Of a DNA stretch of 64,000 nt, positions 6,148-61,658 are shown piece after piece; position 1 is the first letter of the stretch, and each line of letters opens with the position of its first letter. The translations under genes were made by a program, and so were the position numbers. This DNA comes from an uncultured Gemmatimonadota bacterium (GTDB lineage: Bacteria; Gemmatimonadota; Gemmatimonadetes; Gemmatimonadales; Gemmatimonadaceae), in assembly GCA_903910555.1 (NCBI GenBank), contig CAIVZZ010000004.1, positions 62,001 through 126,000 of the forward strand. The letters are read 5' to 3'. Below the pieces are notes generated by a model. It ran no database searches. It saw nothing but the letters and a program-made list of their open reading frames with translations, and was not told where the DNA came from.

Positions 6148-6186
6148 GCGCGGCGGGGGTGAGCCCTGCGGTGGCAGAGTGTACGA

Positions 6187-6336
6187 CGAGTTAACTGTTA
6201 ACCACTAACTTTTCGTCGGTTAGCCAAGGTAAGAAAATTCGCCCTGACCTCGAACGCGATCGACGCGGCTCGGTGTCAGGGCGAATTATTTAACTTTGGT
6301 TAACCGACCAACAGTTAGTTGTTAACAGTTAACTCG
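6187..6336. repeat. Large palindrome, family A copy 1 (probable bidirectional terminator)
   Basis: A 150-bp near-perfect inverted repeat between two convergent genes. The outer arms share CACTAACTGTTGGTCGGT with two other elements, at 8441 and 40812 (this copy reads ACTAACTTTTCGTCGGTT on the left arm). The inner hairpin (6236-6287) pairs AATTCGCCCTGAC with GTCAGGGCGAATT, has A/T-rich flanks on both sides and is private to this locus. A transcript from either strand would form a very long hairpin followed by U-rich sequence. Confidence 0.85.
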
Positions 6337-6367
6337 CAGTATCAGGTTAACAAGAAGTCAGTTTCTC

Positions 6368-8405: not shown

Positions 8406-8440
8406 TAACGGCCACCGCAGCTGTGAACACATGTACTGCG

Positions 8441-8582
8441 AGTGAACTGTTAACCACTAACTGTTGGTCAGTTAACCAAGGTGTAAAAATCCGTCCGGGC
8501 CACCAAACGCGCGATCGCGTTCGCAGCCCGGACGGATTTTCATACAGAACACCGACCAACAGTTAGTGGTTAACTGTTCACT
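8441..8582. repeat. Large palindrome, family A copy 2 (probable bidirectional terminator)
   Basis: A 142-bp inverted repeat between the convergent cold-shock operon and the VPS10-like gene. The outer arms carry AGTGAAC, GTTAACCACTAACTG and TTGGTCGGT as in the other family A members. The private inner hairpin pairs AAAATCCGTCCGGGC (8486-8500) with GCCCGGACGGATTTT (8526-8540). The + strand operon already has its own TTCG terminator just upstream, so this element is an addition rather than the only terminator. Confidence 0.85.
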
Positions 8583-8598
8583 TCAGCCGAACGTGGTT

Positions 8599-20568: not shown

Positions 20569-21856
20569 ACTCGCCGCGGTGCTGCTGGCGTGCGCGCCGC
20601 ACGTCGCAGTCGGCGAGCGCGGTGTGCTCTGGGTTGATGCGCGCGGATTCAGCGCGGGCGAACAGCTCGCGCTCGCCGGCACGGCGCTTGTGCTGCTCGG
20701 CAATCGCGGTATCACCGGCACGCGCGCTGCGCTCGCGGATACTCCGATCGCCGCCGAACTCGCGGCGCGCACGGGACATGGCAACGCTGAACAAGAAAAA
20801 GAAGGAGCGGTCGCTATAGTTGCACCGGGAACTGATCGCGCGTTCGTCGCGCTCTTTCCTATAGATGTGCTCAACCCGCCGCAGCGACTCGAGCCACTGC
20901 TCTTCAGTATTGGCGTCGCCACCTGCGGTGAACTCGCGGTGCTCGAGCACGAAGCGATCGAAGTGCGACTCGGCGCCGAGGGCGTCGCGTTGTGGCGGCT
21001 CGCGCGCGCGGATGATCGCCGCAGTGAGTCGCTCTTTCCGCCGGCGCAGCGCGCGCTGCCGCACGCGTCACTCGACTGGGTCGAGTACGCACTGAAGGAT
21101 CCGATGCGCCTGTTGTTCGTGATCAATTCTCTGATTGAGAACGTGTGCAGCGCGCTGATCGAGAACGGGAGCGGTGCGCGCGAAATCACGATCGAGTTTT
21201 CGCTCACAGACCGCACCACACATTTGCAGCCGCTCCGTTCCGCGCGGCCCACTGCAAACCGGAGCACCTGGATCCGGCTCGCACGCACGGCGCTCGACAA
21301 AATCGCGCTTGTTGCGGCGGTGACGGGAGTCGGCGTGCGCGCGACGCGCGTGACGGGGCAGGAGTCCAAGCAGGGCGATCTGTTCGATCGTGGATTCGTC
21401 AGCGCGCAGGCGACAGAAGATGCGGTCGCACGGCTGGTGGAAGATCAGGGAGATGTCGTGGTGGTGCCGGAGAACTCGGCGCATCCGTTGCTGGATGTGC
21501 GCACGAAATGGAAAAATGAGGATCGTGAATGGAAAACCGAGAACCGAAAACCGAAGACCGAAAATCAAATACCGCATCTCCAGTTGCAGCTCTCACCGTC
21601 ACCACAGTTGATCAGTGTGGAGACCGCGCCGCGGCGCGATCACTTTGTGCCGGCGCGGTATCGCGATGCGGGCGGGTGGCATGAGATCGTGCAGGCGGCG
21701 GGACCTGATCGTGTATCAGGCGGACAGTGCGACAGCATCCGCACATACGCGCGCGAATATTTTCGTTGCGTGACGAACGACGGCGCGCTCGTCTGGCTCT
21801 TTCGTGACGCGCAGGAAAAGACGGGCGGCTGGTATCTGCACGGCTGGTGGGATTGA
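20477..21856 (+). CDS. imuB: ImuB-like, Y-family polymerase-related mutasome protein
   Basis: 459 aa. It starts MSFVCLWNPAWQ, as ImuB proteins do, and keeps the Y-family scaffold only loosely: the catalytic acidic triad is absent, which fits ImuB as a non-catalytic hub linking DnaE2 to the sliding clamp. GELAVLEHEAIEVRLGAEG (about residues 150-170) looks like the helix-hairpin region; VSVETAPRRDHFVPARYRDAGGWHEI-type text near the C-terminus matches the ImuB tail. Between about residues 343 and 366 lies a Lys/Glu/Asn-rich stretch encoded by a low-complexity repeat, not seen in normal ImuB. Start ATG lies inside imuA; the stop is 3 bases before dnaE2. Confidence 0.82.
   Translation: MSFVCLWNPAWQTDGDFPAEKSEQKSKIRPELAAVLLACAPHVAVGERGVLWVDARGFSAGEQLALAGTALVLLGNRGITGTRAALADTPIAAELAARTGHGNAEQEKEGAVAIVAPGTDRAFVALFPIDVLNPPQRLEPLLFSIGVATCGELAVLEHEAIEVRLGAEGVALWRLARADDRRSESLFPPAQRALPHASLDWVEYALKDPMRLLFVINSLIENVCSALIENGSGAREITIEFSLTDRTTHLQPLRSARPTANRSTWIRLARTALDKIALVAAVTGVGVRATRVTGQESKQGDLFDRGFVSAQATEDAVARLVEDQGDVVVVPENSAHPLLDVRTKWKNEDREWKTENRKPKTENQIPHLQLQLSPSPQLISVETAPRRDHFVPARYRDAGGWHEIVQAAGPDRVSGGQCDSIRTYAREYFRCVTNDGALVWLFRDAQEKTGGWYLHGWWD
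21506..21574. repeat. Purine-rich low-complexity insertion inside imuB
   Basis: A tandem of GAAAACC/GAGAACC/GAAGACC-type units (AACCGAGAACCGAAAACCG is one part) in an otherwise GC-rich gene. It is in frame and encodes a polar, Lys/Glu/Asn-rich segment (KTENRKPKTEN). The base composition differs strongly from the flanks, which suggests a short inserted or expanded repeat at a surface linker. Confidence 0.7.
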
Positions 21857-40727: not shown

Positions 40728-40811
40728 ACCGCACGATGGCGTGCGGCGCGGACGGAAGCTTTACCTGATCTGCGCATGGCGTATCGAAAAAGCGCAGCGA
40801 ATCGAACCGCA

Positions 40812-40903
40812 AGTGGAAGGTTAACAACTAACTGTTGGTCGGTGTTCTGTTGACGAATTTGTTAACAGAACACCGACCAACAGTTAGTAGTTAACAGTTC
40901 ACT
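40812..40903. repeat. Large palindrome, family A copy 3
   Basis: A 92-bp inverted repeat. Both arms contain CTAACTGTTGGTCGGTGTTC or its complement and TTAAC near the ends, as in the elements at 6187 and 8441. The core is short (TTGACGAATTTGTTAACA). It ends with TTTTT beside the stop of the HAD gene, so on the minus strand it is a terminator for that gene, and lies 84 bases upstream of the methyltransferase start. Confidence 0.85.
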
Positions 40904-40905
40904 TT

Positions 40906-50232: not shown

Positions 50233-50256
50233 CTGAGCTGTGAGCTTCGAACGGCA

Positions 50257-50353
50257 CGACGTCAGACGATAGCTGCGAGTTATTGGCTGCGAGACAACGG
50301 CTTCATTACCGATCCTTGCACAAGTCGGTAATGAGGCCGTTTCTCTCGCAGCT
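50257..50353. repeat. Palindrome, family C copy 1 (right outer arm lost)
   Basis: The left arm reads CGACGTCAGACGATAGC, later GGCTGCGAGACAACG and GGCTTCATTACCGA, close to the element at 60381. The inner part is a 30-bp hairpin (50285-50353) ending CTCGCAG, but the outer right arm is missing and replaced by the remnant of a lipoprotein gene. Confidence 0.75.
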
Positions 50354-51528: not shown

Positions 51529-53490
51529 ATGCCCGACAATATGAAACCGACGCACACTGCTGCGTCTCCGCAGAATGCCCACGTCTCAGAGGCGGAAGCG
51601 CGCGACGTTGCAGAACAGGCGCGTGAGACCGAGTGGACGCACCCGAGTTTTGTGCGTGAATTGTTTCTTGGCCGGTTCCGCGCCGAGCTGATTCATCCGC
51701 ACCCGATGGAAGACGCGGCGGAAGCTGCGCGCGCGAAACCGTTTCTCGATCAACTGAGCGCGTTTCTCGATACGTACGATGCGGACGAGACGGATCGTAC
51801 CGGGAATATCAAAGAGTCCGATGTTCAGCAGCTGCGCGACATGGGCGCGATGGGAATCAAGATTCCGAAAGAGTATGGCGGCCTTGGCCTGTCGCAGATG
51901 ACGTATGTGAAGGCGATGGAGCTGGTGACGTCGAAGTGCGGATCGCTCGTCGCGCTCCTCTCTGCGTCGCAGTCGATCGGCGTGCCGCAGCCGCTCAAGC
52001 TGTTCGGGACAGAGGAGCAAAAGAAGAAATATTTTCCGCGCATCGCGAAGGGTGCGATCACGGCGTTCGCGCTGACCGAGGTGCATGCGGGATCGGATCC
52101 GGCGACGATGACGACATCAGCGGTGCTCTCCGAAGACGGAAAGCACTGGGTGATCAACGGCGAGAAGTTGTGGTGCACGAACGGCACGCGCGCGGAACTG
52201 TTCGTGGTGATGGCGCGCACGCCGGACAAGATCGTGAACGGAAAGGCGCGCAAGCAGATCACGGCGTTCATCGTGGACAGCAAGACGCCGGGCTTTGAAG
52301 TGAAGATGCGCTGCCACTTCATGGGATTGAAAGCGATCGAGAACGGCTGGCTCTCGTTCAAGGACGTGAAAGTTCCGATCGAAGACGTGCTGTGGGCTGA
52401 AGGGAAGGGACTCAAGCTCGCGCTAACGACGCTGAACACGGGGCGCCTCACGATTCCGGCGAGTGTGGTCGGCGGGGCGAAGGCACTGTTAAAATCGGTG
52501 CGCGCGTGGGCGATGGAACGCGTGCAGTGGGGACAGCCGATCGGAAAGCATGAAGCAGTTGCACAGAAACTCGCGCGCATGGCGTCGAGCACTTTTGCGA
52601 TGGAGTCGGTCGCGCTGCTGACGACGTCGCTGTATGAGAAGGGCGGCTACGATATTCGTCTCGAAGCGGCGATCGCGAAGCTTTGGAACACCGAAGCGGC
52701 GTGGAAGGGCGTAGATGATGCGCTCCAGATTCGCGGCGGACGCGGCTACGAAACTGCGGATTCGCTCCGCGCGCGCGGCGAGAAACCGATTCCTGTTGAG
52801 CGCATGATGCGCGACTCGCGCATCAATCTGATTTTCGAAGGGTCGAGTGAGATCATGCGATTGTTCATTGCGCGTGAGGCGGTGGACGCGCACTTCTCGA
52901 TCGCGTTTCCGATCGTTGCGCCGGAGTCGTCGTTCTCGACTCGAATCAAGGCACTCATCAAGGCGACGCCGTTCTATGTGACCTGGTATCCCGCGCGCTG
53001 GATTCCGAGCTTCAAGACGTACGGCGATTTCGGGAAGCTCGCCGGGCACATGCGTTTTGTGGACGGCACGACGCGCAAGCTGGGGCGCTCGCTCTTTCAC
53101 GCGATGGTCCGGTTCGGCCCGAAGCTCGAACGAAAGCAGATGGTGCTGTTCCGCGCGGTGGATATCGGAGCTGAACTTTTTGCGATGGCGGCGAGTTGCT
53201 CGCGCGCGGTGATGCTGGCGTCAAAGCTGAATCAGCCTGAGGCGATTCAGCTTGCGGATGCGTTTTGTGTTGAGGCGCGCGGCAGGATCGAGGCGCTGTT
53301 CAAGTCACTGTACGGGCCGCACGATGAGCAGCTCTACAAACTGGCGATGGGAGTGTTGAAGGGTGAGTACGCGTGGCTCGAGGAAGGGATCGCGTGGGAG
53401 TCGTACTATGGCGAGTCTTCAGTCCAGAGTCTTCCGTCTAGCGTCCGAAAACCAGCAGTTGTCAGTTCCGAACTGACGACTGCTGGTTAA
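51529..53490 (+). CDS. Acyl-CoA dehydrogenase, very-long-chain type
   Basis: 653 aa. FAD enzyme that makes trans-2-enoyl-CoA. AFALTEVHAGSDPATMTTSA (about residues 182-202) is the FAD-binding loop, WVINGEKLWCTNG follows; the C-terminal half has the RMMRDSRINLIFEGSSEIMRLFIAREA helix with the catalytic Glu region (near 436-452). The extra C-terminal domain fits VLCAD/ACAD9-type enzymes. The last 26 codons (from about 53413) are provided by a palindromic repeat, and the family tail is normally shorter. A later in-frame ATG at 51541 is possible. Confidence 0.9.
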   Translation: MPDNMKPTHTAASPQNAHVSEAEARDVAEQARETEWTHPSFVRELFLGRFRAELIHPHPMEDAAEAARAKPFLDQLSAFLDTYDADETDRTGNIKESDVQQLRDMGAMGIKIPKEYGGLGLSQMTYVKAMELVTSKCGSLVALLSASQSIGVPQPLKLFGTEEQKKKYFPRIAKGAITAFALTEVHAGSDPATMTTSAVLSEDGKHWVINGEKLWCTNGTRAELFVVMARTPDKIVNGKARKQITAFIVDSKTPGFEVKMRCHFMGLKAIENGWLSFKDVKVPIEDVLWAEGKGLKLALTTLNTGRLTIPASVVGGAKALLKSVRAWAMERVQWGQPIGKHEAVAQKLARMASSTFAMESVALLTTSLYEKGGYDIRLEAAIAKLWNTEAAWKGVDDALQIRGGRGYETADSLRARGEKPIPVERMMRDSRINLIFEGSSEIMRLFIAREAVDAHFSIAFPIVAPESSFSTRIKALIKATPFYVTWYPARWIPSFKTYGDFGKLAGHMRFVDGTTRKLGRSLFHAMVRFGPKLERKQMVLFRAVDIGAELFAMAASCSRAVMLASKLNQPEAIQLADAFCVEARGRIEALFKSLYGPHDEQLYKLAMGVLKGEYAWLEEGIAWESYYGESSVQSLPSSVRKPAVVSSELTTAG

Positions 53491-53525
53491 CAGACGCTAG
53501 ACAGGAGACCTTAGACGCAGACTCT
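53413..53525. repeat. Large palindrome, family B copy 1
   Basis: A 113-bp inverted repeat between two convergent genes. The arms read GAGTCTTCAGTCCAGAGTCT and CCGTCTAGCGTCCGAAAACC, with the complement on the other side; the core is GTCAGTTCCGAACTGAC. It contains the last 26 codons and the stop of the acyl-CoA dehydrogenase gene, and touches the stop of the EamA gene. Confidence 0.85.
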
Positions 53526-54450
53526 ACGCTACGCGCTGGCGTCGGAACTGAAGAACCACCACCGCCGAAACGATCATCGCGCCACCGAGCAGCATGTTCG
53601 CGGTGATCGCCTGACTCAGGACGATCGCGCCGAGCACTGCGGTGAGGAAAGGCTCAACCGTTGAGATGATCGCGGTGCGCACTGCGCCGAGCCGCATGAG
53701 GCCCATCAGGAAAAACACCGAGGGCATCACGGTGCTGAAGAGCGTGAGCGCGATGATCGCGATCCATGCAGTCGACGAGAGATTTGCGCTCAGCGTTTGA
53801 TCCTGCAAGGCGAGCAGCAGGAAACAGAGTGCTGATCCGATCTTTCCATACGCGCTGGTGACGGCCACCGGATGCGACTTCTGCATCCACTGCATGAGCG
53901 GGATGTACATGCCGTAGATGATTGCCGCGCCGAGTGCGAGTGCGATTCCGGTCGTCGGGAACTGTGCTGCGCCGGGCGCGCCGCCGGCACCGGGCACTCC
54001 AACGATCACGACGATTCCCCCAAAACTGAGCGCGAGCGCCGCGACGCGTCGCAGTGTCAGCGGTTCCGCGCCGCGAATTGTTTGGACGAGCGTGACCCAC
54101 GCCGGATATGTGTAGAAGAGAAAAGCGAGTGTTGCGACGCCGATGTACTTGAGGCTGGAGAGCGCCATCCCAACCAGCAGCGCCTGCCCACCGCCGCCGA
54201 GTACGATGAAGCGCAGCGCTTCGGCCCATCGCATGCGCGGATAATTCTGCGTTGTGATGAAAGTCACCATCACGACGGCGCCGATGAGGTAGCGCCACAT
54301 GAGGACATCGTAGAGCGAGACGCCCTGCTTGGTGGCGATCGTCGAGAGCGTGCTGACAGCAGCGAACCCGCACGCGGCGAGCAGGGTATACGCTGTGCCG
54401 GCGCCAGTTTCGCCGGGGATGGTGATCGCCGCTGATTTTGCTTCGCTCAT
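53524..54450 (-). CDS. EamA/DMT-superfamily transporter
   Basis: 308 aa with ten hydrophobic segments in two EamA repeats (about 20-145 and 165-300). Repeat 1: YTLLAACGFAAVSTLSTIATKQGVSL; repeat 2: PTTGIALALGAAIIYGMYIPLMQWM, FSTVMPSVFFLMGLMRLGAVRTAIISTVEPFLTAVLGAIVL. Exporter of metabolites such as amino acids; substrate unknown. The TAG stop is the end of the family B palindrome. A 540-base gap with structured DNA lies upstream. Confidence 0.9.
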   Translation of the reverse strand: MSEAKSAAITIPGETGAGTAYTLLAACGFAAVSTLSTIATKQGVSLYDVLMWRYLIGAVVMVTFITTQNYPRMRWAEALRFIVLGGGGQALLVGMALSSLKYIGVATLAFLFYTYPAWVTLVQTIRGAEPLTLRRVAALALSFGGIVVIVGVPGAGGAPGAAQFPTTGIALALGAAIIYGMYIPLMQWMQKSHPVAVTSAYGKIGSALCFLLLALQDQTLSANLSSTAWIAIIALTLFSTVMPSVFFLMGLMRLGAVRTAIISTVEPFLTAVLGAIVLSQAITANMLLGGAMIVSAVVVLQFRRQRVA

Positions 54451-54501
54451 GAGGAGAGAGTGTAACGGATTCTAAAGTTTCGCGCCGCACGATACGAAAC
54501 T

Positions 54502-54531
54502 TTGACATTCAGGGCGCGTATTCAATACGAA
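54502..54531 (+). promoter_or_regulatory. Possible promoter upstream of the structured gap
   Basis: TTGACA (54502-54507) and TACGAA (54526-54531) are 18 bases apart. A transcript from here would contain the hairpin at 54583 and the palindrome at 54677 before the start of the dehydrogenase gene at 54991. The -10 box is poor. Confidence 0.3.
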
Positions 54532-54582
54532 CGCGATGCAACCATTTGGACGTACAGGTGTTCTAATCCTGTAGAAGGAATA

Positions 54583-54660
54583 GGCGACGGGCAGGGAGTA
54601 CTGCGGTGCAGGCCGGTGCTGGTGGGGGGCCGGCCTCCTGTGTACTGACTGCCCGTCGCC
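54583..54660 (+). other. Stable nested hairpin, possible structured RNA
   Basis: A 12-bp perfect outer stem (GGCGACGGGCAG with CTGCCCGTCGCC) holds a second 5-bp stem (AGTAC/GTACT, 54597-54601 with 54642-54646) and an inner 7-bp stem (AGGCCGG/CCGGCCT, 54610-54616 with 54630-54636). No T-run follows, so it is not a standard terminator. I could not match it to SRP RNA, 6S RNA or a known riboswitch. It lies in the divergent gap. Confidence 0.4.
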
Positions 54661-54676
54661 AATTCCGTTAACGGCA

Positions 54677-54926
54677 GAGGTGAGTGGGAGTTGAGAATGA
54701 GAGGTGAGTCTGAGAGGGAGGGATGAGTTGGAGAACGCTCAGTGGGAGTTTGAGGGGCGAGAGTGAGGCAGAGAGGGAGTAAAGTGGGAGTGGGATCCTA
54801 ATCGATTCCCACTCGCACTTTGCTCCCTCTTTCGCTCACTCTCGCCACTCAAACTCCCACTTTACTTGCTCCAACTCATCCCTCCCTCTCTAACTCACCT
54901 CTCATACTCAACTCAGATCTCACCTC
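54677..54926. repeat. 250-bp low-complexity palindrome, family D
   Basis: Arms of about 120 bases. The left arm is purine-rich (GAGTGGGAGTT, GAGAGGGAGGGATGAGTTGG and GAGAGTGAGGCAGAGAGG are parts), and the right arm is its complement, rich in C and T. Identity between the arms is high, with small insertions; the core is around GGATCCTAATCGATTCC. The left strand is almost free of C. Can form a long cruciform or triplex, or a 120-bp RNA hairpin. Only 64 bases separate it from the start of the dehydrogenase gene. Confidence 0.85.
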
Positions 54927-54990
54927 AGATTTCACCTCTCCCTTCAGCCGGACCCTAGCGTGTAGTCCGTATTCCGATGACTTTTCCGGA

Positions 54991-55881
54991 ATGCCCCCCA
55001 TCGCATTTCTCGGCCTCGGCGCAATTGGCGCCCCTATGGCCAAACATCTCAAAAATCCGGACTTCGATCTCGTCGTTTGGAACCGGACTCCTTCAAAAGC
55101 TGCGGCGTTTGCCGCGGCAAACGGCGCGCGACACGCGAAAACACCGGCCGAAGCTGCGCGCGGCTGTCAGATAGTCATCACGTGCTTGCCGACCTCGCGC
55201 GAAGTCGCGTCGCTGCTCGATGGCCCCGACGGATTGCTCGCGGGCATGGCGAATGGCTCAATCCTCGTCGATTGCACCTCCGGTGATCCCGCCACATCGC
55301 GCGCAACCGCCGCGCGACTCGCGGAGAAAGGAATCGGATTTCTCGATGCTCCGGTTAGCGGTGGCGTTGTAGGCGCGGAAGCTGGCAAGCTCACCGTGAT
55401 GGTCGGCGGTGATGCGGCAACGCTCGAGCGCGCGATGCCGGCGCTCAACACGTTCGGTGAAAAAATCGTCCACTGCGGCCCCGTGGGCGCCGGCGATGCG
55501 ATCAAGGCTGTGAATCAAGCGATGCTCGCCGTGCACATCTGGAGCTTGGGCGAAGGAATGCTTGCGTTGTCAAAAGCCGGTGTGAAACCGGAAGTCGCGC
55601 TCGATGTGATCAACGCATCGAGCGGGCGCTCGAATGTCTCGATGAATCTCTTTCCGCAGCGCGTCATTGGCCGGGCGTTTCCACGAACGTTCAAGCTCGC
55701 GCTGATCGACAAAGACGTTCGCATTGCCGCACAGTTTTTGCGTGAACAGAATGTGCCGTCGCCGCTGACACAGCTGACGGCTGAACTCTTCGCCGCTGCG
55801 CACGCCGAGCTTGGAGAGGAGGCGGATCACGTCGAAGCGGTGAAAGTGATCGAGCGCACCGGCGGAGCGGAGATCAAGTGA
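54991..55881 (+). CDS. 3-hydroxyisobutyrate dehydrogenase-like NAD(P)-dependent oxidoreductase
   Basis: 296 aa. 6-phosphogluconate-dehydrogenase-like fold: IAFLGLGAIGAPMAKHL (nucleotide-binding GxGxxG, residues 4-20), VVWNRTPSKA, DAPVSGGVVGAEAGKLTVMVGG (substrate motif S122-G-G), and GDAIKAVNQAML with the catalytic Lys (near residue 172). Could act on 3-hydroxyisobutyrate, 2-hydroxy-3-oxopropionate or glyoxylate. The start ATG at 54991 is just after the family D palindrome; sequence upstream is in frame but is repeat DNA. Overlaps the next start (GTGA). Confidence 0.9.
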   Translation: MPPIAFLGLGAIGAPMAKHLKNPDFDLVVWNRTPSKAAAFAAANGARHAKTPAEAARGCQIVITCLPTSREVASLLDGPDGLLAGMANGSILVDCTSGDPATSRATAARLAEKGIGFLDAPVSGGVVGAEAGKLTVMVGGDAATLERAMPALNTFGEKIVHCGPVGAGDAIKAVNQAMLAVHIWSLGEGMLALSKAGVKPEVALDVINASSGRSNVSMNLFPQRVIGRAFPRTFKLALIDKDVRIAAQFLREQNVPSPLTQLTAELFAAAHAELGEEADHVEAVKVIERTGGAEIK

Positions 55882-57146
55882 GCGAAGTCAGCACGGCAGC
55901 CATGAGCCGCAGCGTGCCCGGTGCGCGCGTCGCTCCGCTCGAACAGATCCGCGCGCGTTTTCCGGCACTGGAACGAGTGCATGAAGGGAAGGCGGTTGCA
56001 TACTTCGACGGGCCCGGCGGAACGCAGGTGCCCAAGTCGGTCGTCGACGCAATGCGCGACTACCTGCTCCACCACAACGCGAACACCGACTGGGCATATC
56101 CGACGAGCGCAGAAACCGACGCGCTGATCGCAGCATCGCGCGTGGCGCTTGCCGATTTTCTGAATGCCGATGCATCGGAAATCGCGTTCGGCAACAACAT
56201 GACGACGCTCACGTTCCATCTCGCGCGCTCGCTCGGCGCCGCATGGGGACCTGGCGACGAAATCGTCATCACCGATCTCGATCACCACGCCAACATCGCG
56301 CCCTGGCGCCGCCTGGAGCAGGAGCGCGGCGTGACGATCAAACGGGTCGGTGTCGATCTCGAGCGCGGACAGCTCGACTGGGAGAGTCTCAAGAGCGCGC
56401 TCGGCACCCGCACGAAACTGCTCGCGATCGGCGCCGCATCAAATGCGCTCGGCACGATCAACGATGTCACGCGCGCGGCGCGACTCGCGCACGATGTTGG
56501 CGCGACGGTGTTTGTCGACGCGGTGCACTACGCGCCGCACGAACTCGTGGATGTTCGCGCGATCGACTGCGATTTCCTCGCGTGCAGCCCGTACAAGTTT
56601 TACGGGCCGCACACGGGCGTGCTGTTTGGGAAAAAAGAACGCATCGAGGCACTCGATGTTCCGCGTCTCGATCCCGCGCATAACAATTCGCCGGACCGCC
56701 TCGAGACGGGCACGCTGAATCATGAGGGAATGGTTGGTGCCGCGGCGGCTGTCGATTTCTTTGCATCGCTCGCGACGGGCGCGACACGCCGCAAACGTCT
56801 CGAGACGGCGTTCGCCGGATTGCATTCGCGAGGACAGGAGCTGGTTCAGCGCCTTTGGTCGGGACTCTCCGTCATCAAAGGCGTCACGATGTACGGCCCG
56901 ACGCCCGATCAGCCGCGCACGCCGACGGTTTCGTTCACGATGCGCGGGAAGGCGTCGATCGATATCGCGCGGCATCTCGCGACGCGCGCGGTGTTTGTTT
57001 CGAACGGAGATTTTTACGCCGCGACGATTGTGGACCTGCTCGGCCACGCGGCCGACGGACTGCTGCGCGTGGGCTGCGCGTGTTACACGTCGGCGGATGA
57101 AGTTGAGCGGTTGATTGCGGCGGTCGCGGAACTGCAGGGCAGGTAG
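55878..57146 (+). CDS. Cysteine desulfurase-like class V aminotransferase
   Basis: 422 aa from GTG 55878 (a downstream ATG at 55902 is also possible). PLP enzyme of the class V fold type I. VAYFDGPGGTQVPKSVVDAM at the N-terminus, VITDLDHHANIAPWRRLEQE, VDAVHYAPHELVDVRAIDCDFLACSPYKFYGPHTGVLFGK with the PLP Lys near residue 243. It is the TIGR01976-type group (cysteine-desulfurase-like), distinct from IscS/SufS, so the true reaction is unsure. Coupled to the dehydrogenase gene. Confidence 0.88.
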   Translation: MSEVSTAAMSRSVPGARVAPLEQIRARFPALERVHEGKAVAYFDGPGGTQVPKSVVDAMRDYLLHHNANTDWAYPTSAETDALIAASRVALADFLNADASEIAFGNNMTTLTFHLARSLGAAWGPGDEIVITDLDHHANIAPWRRLEQERGVTIKRVGVDLERGQLDWESLKSALGTRTKLLAIGAASNALGTINDVTRAARLAHDVGATVFVDAVHYAPHELVDVRAIDCDFLACSPYKFYGPHTGVLFGKKERIEALDVPRLDPAHNNSPDRLETGTLNHEGMVGAAAAVDFFASLATGATRRKRLETAFAGLHSRGQELVQRLWSGLSVIKGVTMYGPTPDQPRTPTVSFTMRGKASIDIARHLATRAVFVSNGDFYAATIVDLLGHAADGLLRVGCACYTSADEVERLIAAVAELQGR

Positions 57147-57157
57147 CGCGCCGTCTG

Positions 57158-57270
57158 TAGTCTGCAGTCTAAGGTCTTCTGTCTAGCGTCTGAAAACCTG
57201 CGGTTTGCAGTTCACAACTGCGTACTGCGGGTTTTCAGACGCTAGACAAAAGACACTAGACACAGACTCA
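57158..57270. repeat. Large palindrome, family B copy 2
   Basis: A 113-bp inverted repeat between convergent genes. The arms read GTCTAGCGTCTGAAAACC and its complement GGTTTTCAGACGCTAGAC; the outer part AGTCTGCAGTCTAAGG pairs with CTAGACACAGACT. It stops exactly at the TGA of the kinase gene (57268-57270). The core differs from the 53413 copy. Confidence 0.85.
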
Positions 57271-60200
57271 CCGCTTTCCCTCAACCCCCGTCAACTTCGC
57301 CAACCGCGCCTTTGCATCGGCAACTTTTGGCTGCAGTTCCGGATCCGCGTTCTTCCACAAGTCGACAAACTTGGTGTAGTTCTCCGCAGCTTTCGTCCTG
57401 TCGCCTTTGTTTTCCCAGAGTTCACCCAGCCGGCGGTACGACAGCGCCAGGAAGTATTGATCGTTGTTCATCTTCCCCATGATCGACGTCGCGCCGGTGT
57501 AGCGCGTGAGCGTGGCAATCGCCGAGTCCGGCTGCCCGGCGAGATCGAACACCATGCCGAGTAGCGGCGCGACGCACGTGGTGCACGATCCAACGTCAGC
57601 CGCGCGCAATTCCGTTATCGCATCGGGGTAACGTTTCTCCGCGATGGCGATCATCGACTTCATCGAATGACGGTTCGCGTCTGCATTCTCGGCCGGCATC
57701 GTTCCGGCGGTCGTCTCGAACTCGGTGAGCATCGCGCGCGCGAGATCGGGGCGGCCCGCGAAGCTGTAGATCTGCGCGAGGCTGGCGTATGGGCGCGTGA
57801 GCGGCGGCATCGAGGAGAGCGGTTTGCGCTGCAGCGCGCCCTGGAGGATCGAGATCGCGCGTGCGTTGTCGCCGAGGAACCACGCTTCCACCATCGCGGA
57901 GTCGGACGCGAGGCCGAGCGTACGATCGGGATAACCGCGTTTCTCGAGAAGCTTCGCGCCGTCGCCATCGAGTCGAAGCGCCTCGTGCACGCGCCCGCGC
58001 GTGACGGCCACCGCTTTTTCAACCACGATCTTCGTGCCCATCAAATCGAGCATCGCGGGATTCGCATTGGAAACCGAATCGGCGTACGCGGCGGCCATGT
58101 CGTACGCGGTGCGGCTCCAGAGAAAGTTCACGTGATCCATCGCGACGCGCGGATTGTTCCCCGACGCCCTCAGCGACGCTGTGAATGTGCTCTCGGCGGC
58201 CGGCATTTTGCCCTGCTCGGCCTGGTATTGCAGGAGGTTGTTGTACGCCGTGAGCGCGGTCGGATTCGACGCGATCGAGCGGCGGAGCAGCCCTTCAGCG
58301 CCGGAGAAGTCCCGGTCCTGCGCGTAAATCAGCGCGAGATTGTTCAGCGCCGCGTACTGTGTCGGCCACTTGGTGAGCAGTTCCTCGAGCGCGGCGCGCG
58401 CTTTCGCGCGATCGGGGTTCGGGCCCTGCGTGTAGTAGGTGCCGATCGTGAGGTACTTCTCAACTTCCGGAAGGTGATCGCGCATCGCGTACGCGCGCTC
58501 GAGCGCGTCGATCTGCGCGGCGCGATCGCGACCGGAATTTCCAAGCGCGATCGCAAGCGCGCGGTATGCAGATGCAAAAGTCGTATCGAGTGCGACCGCC
58601 GCTTTGAACAGCGGAATCGCCTTGTCGAGATCGCGCTCGAGGTTCATCGCGCGCAGCCCCTCGGTGTACTTCTGCAGCGCCGGCAGTGATGCGGTCGTGA
58701 CCTGCGCGAGTTCCGCGGTCGATTGCAAGTGCTTCAGCGACTCGCCCATCTTCCCGCGCAGCTGGTGCGTGAGCTTGCCGATCGTTGGGATCAGATCGGC
58801 GACGGACGACGCGCCCGCCGAAAGGGACGCGAGATCAGCACCCGTGTCGGCGGGCGACAACTTCATCGTCACGAGGAAGCCACCGCCGGTGACGGCGTGG
58901 ATATCGCCGGAGACGATTGCCTTAATCCCCTCGCGCCGCGCGATCTCACGCGCGACGCCGGTGTCGACGCGCGTGTTTGGCGCGCGCTGCATTCGCTGGA
59001 GCGCACCCATCGCGACCGCCGGCGTGACGACCGAAACGATCGGCGACTGCCCGAGATCCGCGCGCACGGCCTCGGATGCCGCGGCGCCGAGCGTGCTGTC
59101 GCCGCTCGCCGTGAACTCGGCAACGAGAATCTTGTCCTTGTCCTTCATTTTGCCCGAACCCATCAGCGACGCAAATGGCCCGATCCCCTCGGCGCGCAGG
59201 GTCATTGCTATCGCGACGAACGCGATGAATGCGGCAAACCCATAGCCGCAGACCGACGCGCAGCGGCGCCATGAAATCCAATGCAGGATTGCCGTCGCGA
59301 GAATCAGCGGCAGCACGAGCGCCATCATCATCATCGATGCGGGCAGCACCCAATCGGGGAGACCGATTCCAACGATGGCAGCCTTCGCGATCACGAACAT
59401 CGCTGCGAACGCGGCAACCCAGATCATGAGCGCGCGGCGCAGCGCACCGGGGCCGCTCATCGCCTGCATCGACTCGAGTGAACCCGTGCTCGTCACGGAG
59501 TCGAGTTGACGGCTCACATCGGCCGCGTTCTGCGGACGCTTATCCGGATCTTTCTCGAGACACTGCATCACAAGATGTGCGAGCGCGGGCGGCGTGTCCG
59601 GGCGCAGGTCGGAAACCGGCTCGGGGCGCTGGCTCATATGCGCGGCGAGCAGTTTCTGCGGCGAAAGCCCCGCGAATGGTGTGCGGCCGGTGAGCAGTTC
59701 GTACGCCATGCAGCCGAACGAATAGATGTCGGCGCGATGATCGGCGCTCGGATCGGCGGCGGACTGCTCCGGGGACATGTACGCCGGCGTTCCGATCGAC
59801 GTACCGATTTGTGTGAGCATCGATCCGTCTTCGGACGACGCGCGCGACGCACTCAGAGCTTTCGCGATTCCGAAGTCGATTACAGCGGCTGCGCCGCCGG
59901 TGAGCACGACATTGTCCGGCTTGATGTCGCGGTGCACGACGAGCCGCTCATGCGCGTAGCCCAGCGCTTTCGAAACATCGCGCAGAATGCTGACGACCTC
60001 GGCGATCGGCAGCGGTCCGCGCGCGATCTTCGCGCGGAGCGATTCGCCGTCGACGAACGGCATCGTGTAGTATGGCACGCCGCTCATTTCGCCCGCGGTC
60101 AGCACGGGCACGATGTGCGGATGCTGAAGACTCGCGGCGAGCTGGATCTCGCGTTTGAACCGATCGACGTTCACACCGGCGCCGAGTTCGATCGGCACGA

Positions 60201-60333
60201 CTTTGATTACGACTTTGCGGCCGAGCGCGATTTCGGTGGCGGTGAAGACACGCGACATGCCGCCGCCGCCGAGCTCCTGGCCGACGGTGTACGCGGATCC
60301 GAGGGCCTGTTGCAACTGGTCGCGCAGTTCCAT
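57268..60333 (-). CDS. Membrane-bound Ser/Thr protein kinase with C-terminal TPR-like repeats
   Basis: 1021 aa. Kinase domain 14-280: glycine loop GQELGGGGMSRVF, catalytic Lys K44 (VVIKVV), HRDIKPDN with D136, DFG at 153-155, GTPAYMSPEQ activation segment end, and DIYSFGCMAYELLTGRTPF. A set of four to five hydrophobic segments (about 300-400) anchors the protein, and the outer part (about 400-1021) has TPR-like helical repeats (ALIYAQDRDFSGAEGLLRRSIASNPTALTAYNNLL). A pattern typical of Gemmatimonadota/Acidobacteriota kinases. Stop adjoins family B palindrome. Confidence 0.9.
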   Translation of the reverse strand: MELRDQLQQALGSAYTVGQELGGGGMSRVFTATEIALGRKVVIKVVPIELGAGVNVDRFKREIQLAASLQHPHIVPVLTAGEMSGVPYYTMPFVDGESLRAKIARGPLPIAEVVSILRDVSKALGYAHERLVVHRDIKPDNVVLTGGAAAVIDFGIAKALSASRASSEDGSMLTQIGTSIGTPAYMSPEQSAADPSADHRADIYSFGCMAYELLTGRTPFAGLSPQKLLAAHMSQRPEPVSDLRPDTPPALAHLVMQCLEKDPDKRPQNAADVSRQLDSVTSTGSLESMQAMSGPGALRRALMIWVAAFAAMFVIAKAAIVGIGLPDWVLPASMMMMALVLPLILATAILHWISWRRCASVCGYGFAAFIAFVAIAMTLRAEGIGPFASLMGSGKMKDKDKILVAEFTASGDSTLGAAASEAVRADLGQSPIVSVVTPAVAMGALQRMQRAPNTRVDTGVAREIARREGIKAIVSGDIHAVTGGGFLVTMKLSPADTGADLASLSAGASSVADLIPTIGKLTHQLRGKMGESLKHLQSTAELAQVTTASLPALQKYTEGLRAMNLERDLDKAIPLFKAAVALDTTFASAYRALAIALGNSGRDRAAQIDALERAYAMRDHLPEVEKYLTIGTYYTQGPNPDRAKARAALEELLTKWPTQYAALNNLALIYAQDRDFSGAEGLLRRSIASNPTALTAYNNLLQYQAEQGKMPAAESTFTASLRASGNNPRVAMDHVNFLWSRTAYDMAAAYADSVSNANPAMLDLMGTKIVVEKAVAVTRGRVHEALRLDGDGAKLLEKRGYPDRTLGLASDSAMVEAWFLGDNARAISILQGALQRKPLSSMPPLTRPYASLAQIYSFAGRPDLARAMLTEFETTAGTMPAENADANRHSMKSMIAIAEKRYPDAITELRAADVGSCTTCVAPLLGMVFDLAGQPDSAIATLTRYTGATSIMGKMNNDQYFLALSYRRLGELWENKGDRTKAAENYTKFVDLWKNADPELQPKVADAKARLAKLTGVEGKR

Positions 60334-60380
60334 CCCGAGAAGCTACGGGCGAGAGCTGAGAGGGGGAAGGAACTACAACT

Positions 60381-60510
60381 GCCCGACGTCAGACGTTAGC
60401 GGTGAGCATGTAGCTACGAGACAACGACTTCATGACAGATCAGCGCGCGAATCTGTGATGAAGTCGTTCGCTCGCAGCTAGCAACCGATAGCTAACGTCT
60501 GATGTCGGGC
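60381..60510. repeat. Large palindrome, family C copy 2
   Basis: A 130-bp inverted repeat. The left arm GCCCGACGTCAGACGTTAGC pairs with GCTAACGTCTGATGTCGGGC on the right; inner arms read CGAGACAACGACTTCATGAC and its near complement. Between the starts of the kinase gene and the end of the GH13-like gene on the minus strand, so it may terminate the latter. It resembles the element at 50257. Confidence 0.85.
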
Positions 60511-60512
60511 TG

Positions 60513-61658
60513 TTATCTGTTAGCTCGCTTCTCGGGGCTCGGCACAAACGGCTTCTTGTGCGAAACCCGCGTCTTTTCGAGTCCGCTCAAGAACAGTTCG
60601 TACTTCGACCCCGGATTCCACAGCACCCATCCGTCGTATCCCGCGTCGTAGACCGCGCGCTTCTGCTCGCGCAGTTCCTCGGGTCCGTACGGCGGCTTGC
60701 CGAGCGTGAACGCCTGCAGCCATGGGCGCACGCGTTCGCCGCTCAGGCCGAGCTTCACATTGCGCTCGTGTGCACTGAGGATTGCGGCGTGGATGATCGC
60801 GTACGGCTCCGCATTCGGATGCGCGACATTCAGCGAGCCCGGCGGATAGTGCGATGGATACGTCATCGGCAGGATCACGTCGGTGACAGGCGCAAGATGC
60901 TCCCACTGTTGTCCGACTTCGAGCGCGTTGGGAACAGTCGTCACAAGACCGAAAATATCCGCCGTCGTGCGGACGCCGAGTTTCGAGAGCCGCGAATGCG
61001 CGAGCGAAAGAAAATCCGCGAGCGCCTGCTCTTTGTTCTGTCCGTTCTGGTCCGGAAAGATTTGCGGCGGAAGCGATTTGTATGGCTCGGGGAACCGGAT
61101 GTAGTCGAACTGCACTTCGTTGAATCCAAGTCGAGCCATGTCTTCGGCGACATGGATGTTGTACTCCCAGAGCTCGTGATGATACGGATTCACCCAGAGC
61201 GTGCCTTTTTTATCGCGCCACGGCGTGCCGTCGGCTTTGCGAATCGTCCACGCAGGATGCACGCGCGCGGTGACTGAATCCTTGAACACCACAATGCGCG
61301 CGACGGCGATGATGTGGTGTGCGTGGAGCGTATCGATCAATTCTTTGAGCTTCGGAATCGTTCCCGATTTTCCCGCGTTGTGCTGCAGTGACGTATCCGT
61401 TGGCGCGTAGTTCAGCCCGAACTCGTCTTTGATATCGATGATCAGTGCGTTGATCTCGGTTTGATCCGCGATCTGAATGAGCTGATGGATTCGCTTCGTG
61501 CTTTGCGCCGCGAAGCGGTTCACGTAGAGCCCGCGAACGATCTGCGTATCGGGCGCTGTCGAATGAACAGTTGGAGTAACCGCTGAGGCAGGGGCCTTCG
61601 ATGCACCCTGCGCGAACGCCGTCGAGCCCACAAAGAGGGCGAGGAGACTGTATTTCAC
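60513..61658 (-). CDS. Putative glycoside hydrolase (DUF4015/GH13-like)
   Basis: 381 aa, GTG start at 61658. Signal peptide MKYSLLALFVGSTAFAQG. TIM-barrel segments: RGLYVNRFAAQSTKRIHQLIQIAD, EINALIIDIKDEFG (with the D-x-K-D-x-F/G pattern), HIIAVARIVVFKD, FNEVQFDYIRFPE (acidic Asp, the usual catalytic site in this family), DVILPMTYPSHYPPGS. It resembles DUF4015/COG1306 proteins found in many phyla; the substrate is unknown. The last bases precede the family C palindrome. Confidence 0.85.
   Translation of the reverse strand: MKYSLLALFVGSTAFAQGASKAPASAVTPTVHSTAPDTQIVRGLYVNRFAAQSTKRIHQLIQIADQTEINALIIDIKDEFGLNYAPTDTSLQHNAGKSGTIPKLKELIDTLHAHHIIAVARIVVFKDSVTARVHPAWTIRKADGTPWRDKKGTLWVNPYHHELWEYNIHVAEDMARLGFNEVQFDYIRFPEPYKSLPPQIFPDQNGQNKEQALADFLSLAHSRLSKLGVRTTADIFGLVTTVPNALEVGQQWEHLAPVTDVILPMTYPSHYPPGSLNVAHPNAEPYAIIHAAILSAHERNVKLGLSGERVRPWLQAFTLGKPPYGPEELREQKRAVYDAGYDGWVLWNPGSKYELFLSGLEKTRVSHKKPFVPSPEKRANR

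Follow-up and report, generated by a model that had tools for sequence, protein, structure and literature searches.

The nearest known kind of element to the palindromes described here is the intervening sequence (IVS) of 23S rRNA with its S23 ORF. These sequences are located in 23S rRNA helices and are excised by RNase III, as for example in Coxiella burnetii (PMC4990558). The same source cites earlier suggestions that IVSs arose by transposition and that their mobility requires the ORF (PMC4990558). The elements of the present genome are alike in that a hairpin with terminal inverted repeats surrounds an ORF of the S23 family (PF05635, TIGR02436), the stem being found around the ORF at 10 of 10 loci read in this genome. 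They are unlike in lying between protein genes, in being multicopy, in having heptad arms and in possessing gene-less derivatives. No IVS was found in the genome's own 23S gene, which gave a full-length 23S match in the rRNA operon read. The elements are not located within 23S rRNA genes and were therefore filed as IVS-like.

REP families are tied to a cognate protein gene that is flanked by palindromes. In the available parts of two sources, REP and REPIN elements are described as short dispersed extragenic palindromes (PMC3116915, PMC3733652). The elements found here are dispersed extragenic palindromes too, but the units are of 113-250 bp and are built of heptads, the cognate gene codes for a four-helix bundle, and the Y1 transposase (PF01797) was not detected. 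The Avd protein of DGRs (NF033474) is a distantly related four-helix-bundle protein, with a match below the cut-off, whereas the reverse transcriptase (PF00078) was not detected here. MITEs resemble the present case as inverted-repeat elements that lack the gene of the element from which they derive, but no transposase parent was found here and the duplications measure 13-18 bp, with no fixed short length. Heptad stem-loops were described in P6b of the Nostoc trnL(UAA) intron, where the available part of the source gives a Class I (TDNGATT) and a Class II (NNTGAGT) (PMC4476775). The likeness lies in degenerate heptad stems with fixed and free bases and in a class swap at one site; in contrast, that part of the source deals with a single intron stem-loop and describes no protein partner or dispersed intergenic families, and the motifs differ (PMC4476775).

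The combination of heptad hairpins with a four-helix-bundle gene was not found described in a limited search; a word-based search of the open-access literature gave no prior report of heptads around such genes. It links three things that are usually kept apart, namely the widespread 'four helix bundle protein' genes, the 23S rRNA intervening sequences and intergenic degenerate heptad hairpins. The long-standing idea of a mobility role for the IVS ORF thereby becomes directly testable.

Two palindromes at gene ends in the window

The window is a stretch of 64,000 nucleotides, and genes were called by a simple dicodon script. Two 113-bp palindromes, located at 53413-53525 (copy 1) and 57158-57270 (copy 2) with no strand assigned, as for all hairpins below, had been regarded in the earlier note as members of one family, termed B. 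This was confirmed, as both belong to one direct-repeat family with two members in the window, being 79% identical over 117 nt. Each copy folded, together with its flanks, as a single long hairpin (-71.6 and -79.2 kcal/mol, respectively). The arms of these gene-less hairpins are 7-bp periodic, of the form GTCTNNN, as shown by an autocorrelation near 0.5 at lags 7 and 14 but near 0.2 at most others.

Copy 1 overlaps the 3' end of an acyl-CoA dehydrogenase gene (51529-53490, + strand; PF00441, PF02770 and PF02771), in which the final Pfam match ends at residue 604. It had been claimed that this copy supplies the last 26 codons and the stop. Residue 629 indeed starts at 53413, and the coding part of the copy (53413-53490, + strand) gives residues 629-653, ESSVQSLPSSVRKPAVVSSELTTAG, followed by TAA; the number 26 holds for codons including the stop, the residues being 25. 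The right edge of the palindrome reaches the stop (53524-53526) of the EamA transporter gene (53524-54450, - strand). Copy 2 lies between the stops of two genes. That of the class-V aminotransferase gene (55878-57146, + strand) is found about 11 bp ahead of it, and that of a Ser/Thr protein kinase gene with TPR repeats (57268-60333, - strand; stop TCA at 57268-57270) coincides with the end of the copy at 57270. The earlier observation on both palindromes is real.

When the C-termini of orthologues were compared, those with 57-72% identity ended near WLE(x)GI or in unrelated tails, and the tail encoded by copy 1 was absent. The tail of 26 residues, as first counted, was also looked for among orthologues in distant species and was not found. 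Only in genome G002, with a dehydrogenase 90% identical, was a palindrome-coded tail found at the same place; its palindrome is of the GTCT type and diverged, and the terminal residues TAG are the same as in the dehydrogenase of the window. The dehydrogenases of G010 and G012 (88%) carry GATNGAA heptads at this end, which code a different tail, and that of G011 has GAGTTGA heptads. In G012 a 30-bp insert of simple heptads is surrounded by an 18-bp direct duplication that holds the stop. The GTCT, GATNGAA and GAGTTGA arrays at the dehydrogenase ends therefore indicate that heptad arrays shaped the C-terminus in several ways, the tails of three congeneric lineages each coming from a different array. 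The coding tail would be a by-product of element insertion at the gene end, and the case shows one way in which the C-termini of proteins and the ends of genes are rewritten again and again by mobile DNA.

Dispersal of family B and of other hairpin families

The main counts refer to about 0.85 Mb of the 3.2-Mb genome, and further stretches were included for the alignment of family B, so that about one third of the genome was read. With copy 2 as BLAST query, 24 places were matched in the parts read, which is beyond chance. Family B amounts to about 20 copies in the sampled third, nearly all of them intergenic. Strong self-matches were over-represented in intergenic DNA especially at lags 7 and 14; at lag 7 there were 48 intergenes with a strong self-match in the 0.85 Mb, versus 3-11 at other lags not divisible by 3 or 7. 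In 21 aligned copies of family B the tetrads were conserved to 97% and 94% (arm one and arm two) and the spacers to 71% and 69%, and column conservation was by itself 7-periodic. The copies at about 20 unrelated sites have a non-repetitive centre and a similar length in common. At variable positions the pairing between arms was 0.852 versus 0.847 with shuffled partners, i.e. no covariation beyond chance was found in the family-B copies. This points to recognition of the tetrads rather than to upkeep of a base-paired stem in the RNA. Selection for RNA pairing in itself was considered and is unsupported, as compensatory pairing did not exceed that of shuffled partners. In two copies, at C25:104357 and C25:106504, the centre of the hairpin is expanded by a further four heptads, or about 28 nt. 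Matches of the hairpins to Rfam microRNA families were below gathering scores and were judged to be chance.

The gene-less copies of all families taken together were outside genes in 49 of 50 cases. Such repeats are found near other gene ends, where the earlier note had proposed to look: 18 dispersed copies occurred in 47 convergent intergenes versus 31 in 339 others (p 1e-6), and in tandem genes 17 of 23 copies were nearer to the upstream stop. This bias towards gene 3' ends could be attributed either to target preference or to tolerance.

Strong hairpins that are commoner between convergent genes and near stops could also be explained as bidirectional terminators or 3'-end stabilisers serving the host between genes. 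One family-B copy (C15:180785-180912; L097:785-912), situated at the end of an rRNA operon with about 47 nt between it and the upstream 5S rRNA, agrees with such a role. However, copies occur in divergent intergenes too, arm pairing is overall no better than with shuffled partners, and whole elements are gained or lost between close species. At C5:92.2 kb, moreover, a 113-bp gene-less B hairpin is present only in the genome studied and absent from G010, G012 and G002, and it sits just 3' of a canonical intrinsic terminator that is common to all four species. The ends of family-B copies carry no T run, so that a G+C-rich stem followed by a T run, acting as the gene's own intrinsic terminator, was not found. 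A host function of this kind is accordingly regarded as distinctly improbable. The divergent copies and the separate conserved terminator also leave unsupported the suggestion that the copies set stop codons as a function. The other half of the earlier interpretation, that an otherwise intergenic repeat became coding in the dehydrogenase, is supported; a link between mobile heptad hairpins and a four-helix-bundle gene had not been foreseen.

Several hairpin families exist side by side in the genome, and those of the window are built like family B. Family A (TAACNNN) is represented by gene-less hairpins at 6182-6341, 8434-8583 and 40806-40904, and the four-helix-bundle gene at C11:21050 lies between arms of this family. 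Hairpins of the AGC family lie at 50234-50341 and 60377-60514, with arms flanking the gene at C18:43859. These five belong to the families of loci L103 and L104. A hairpin of the GAGTGGG family, located at 54688-54914, belongs to the family of L109, the arms of which flank the gene at C25:12390. This near-perfect hairpin of 227 bp gave -205 kcal/mol for the stretch folded; it is placed between divergent genes and is therefore on the promoter side of both. A short GAAAACC heptad array (4.7 copies) at 21532-21574 matched none of the hairpin families.

The four-helix-bundle gene and its flanking arms

In the genome studied, 11 PF05635 genes scored above the cut-off. The encoded four-helix-bundle protein corresponds to TIGR02436 (E 3e-16 to 5e-33), and solved relatives are 2gsc and 2rld, with five chains per entry. 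Ten gene loci were read and all ten have complementary flanks (local alignment scores 58-198), whereas only 2 of 160 control genes of similar size exceeded a score of 40. The arms of seven of the ten loci recur elsewhere as gene-less hairpins, and at six of ten both flanks belong to one dispersed family, versus 1 of 162 controls (p 4e-8). Gene-less copies were most numerous for L105 (family B; about 19) and L104 (family A; 16), while L103 had 6 and the others 1-4. In the families of L103, L104, L105, L109, L110 and others, the gene-less copies share their ends with the gene-bearing element. A pair of B-type hairpins was found around a four-helix-bundle ORF at C5:83540-84282. The arms of L101, L102 and L107 had no dispersed copies within the genome sample, and arms were not detectable at some gene copies of the same genus (L116, L118 and L120). 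The protein is under purifying selection, with dN/dS values of 0.06-0.17 in five computable pairs.

It could be argued that the gene is a passive passenger or target and that another, unseen factor moves the hairpins, since such a gene is missing from the neighbourhood of most gene-less copies and the protein has no known catalytic domain. The complementary flanks at every gene-bearing locus of this genome that was read, seven of which match dispersed families, argue against this explanation, as do the purifying selection on the gene and the lack of repeats in genomes without the gene (2 heptad clusters in 341 kb, see below). It is unlikely, though of the alternatives weighed here it is the one least readily set aside.

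Movement by a Y1 (RAYT) transposase, as for REP/REPIN hairpins, or by a reverse transcriptase, as in DGRs, was considered as well. The layout of short dispersed palindromes around a cognate gene resembles that of REP-RAYT, and the protein of L150 gave an E of 5e-6 with the DGR Avd model NF033474, a distant likeness that is under the model cut-off. However, PF01797 was found in none of 18 congeneric genomes, and no PF00078 was detected in G000, G002, G010 and G012 (one hit, in G017 only), though control genomes score. Movement of this kind is very improbable.

Gain and loss between close species and occurrence across bacteria

Presence and absence of whole elements was observed between close species. 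In place of the 751-bp hairpin-gene-hairpin element at C5:83531-84281, only about 95 bp are present in G010 and G012. Between these two genomes, which are about 94% identical, most intergenic indels, assembly gaps aside, are such elements; the differences include units with the gene, 619 and 645 bp long, and gene-less hairpins (154 and 256 bp). On either side of the 619-bp unit there is a 13-bp direct duplication (GCTGCTGGCGTAG), which holds the upstream stop codon. Direct duplications (13 and 18 bp) were clear at 2 of about 6 polymorphic sites and were not evident at the others. In one intergene a gene-less B hairpin is found in the genome studied (C5:100658-100810) and a gene-bearing element of another family, L125, in G012 (C5:40184-40828), with neither in G010 or G002. 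Either insertions are favoured in this intergene, as at a hot spot, or they are tolerated there.

The arrays could alternatively have grown in place as low-complexity repeats (STRR-like), by slippage and template switching and with no mobile unit, the link to the gene arising through shared tolerant sites. The arrays are in fact degenerate tandem heptads, one site shows different motifs in different species, and the 30-bp insert at the dehydrogenase end consists of simple heptads. In-place growth is opposed by the non-repetitive centre and similar length common to members of a family at about 20 unrelated sites, by the gene-containing units of 619-751 bp that come or go whole, and by the concentration of heptads, in many phyla, no farther than 350 bp from genes of one protein family. 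It is considered quite unlikely.

The two palindromes of the window are thus probably non-autonomous, gene-less copies of small mobile hairpin elements tied to one four-helix-bundle gene. The full element would consist of inverted degenerate heptad arrays (here GTCT+NNN), or of a pair of whole hairpins, around one PF05635/TIGR02436 gene. The association of gene and arms suggests that the protein may be the trans-acting factor which moves or maintains both gene-bearing and gene-less copies, and it would recognise the tetrads, set at regular intervals in the hairpin, either as DNA or as RNA. The element showed no known recombinase domain; strand cutting and synthesis would be supplied by host enzymes.

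The association between the gene and heptads was also observed beyond this genome. In Gemmatimonadota, flank complementarity was above the 95th percentile of cross-pairs in 50 of 58 loci and above the 99th in none, the null being cross-pairs from other genomes, in which orthologous pairs inflate the upper tail. Lag-7 periodicity was found in 34 of the 58 loci within 350 bp, versus 2-3 in farther bins. A further 63 loci from other phyla (Bacteroidota, Acidobacteriota, Planctomycetota, Chloroflexota, Desulfobacterota and others) gave 41 within 350 bp versus 7, 6 and 6 farther out, and 1-8 at other lags; one is to be subtracted from each of these figures, as the flanks of L262 hold N runs and add a spurious count at every lag. 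Four congeners without the gene contained 2 heptad clusters in 341 kb, versus 79 in 1.18 Mb of four congeners with it (p 4e-8).

It is conceivable, as a tentative generalisation, that these are bacteria-wide minimal mobile elements without a recognisable recombinase. The protein would read the '4 fixed + 3 free' heptad code of its own hairpin and, with host enzymes, would copy hairpins, both with and without the gene, into the 3' ends of genes; on this view the IVSs of 23S rRNA and the heptad stem-loops of cyanobacteria would be special cases. In Nostoc plasmids the four-helix-bundle gene was found between inverted heptads, e.g. GGGAACA, and several copies are inside conjugation operons. Some arrays have a period of 6, 8 or 9, and at the four-helix-bundle loci L209, L240, L163 and L165 the period is 8 or 9 instead of 7.
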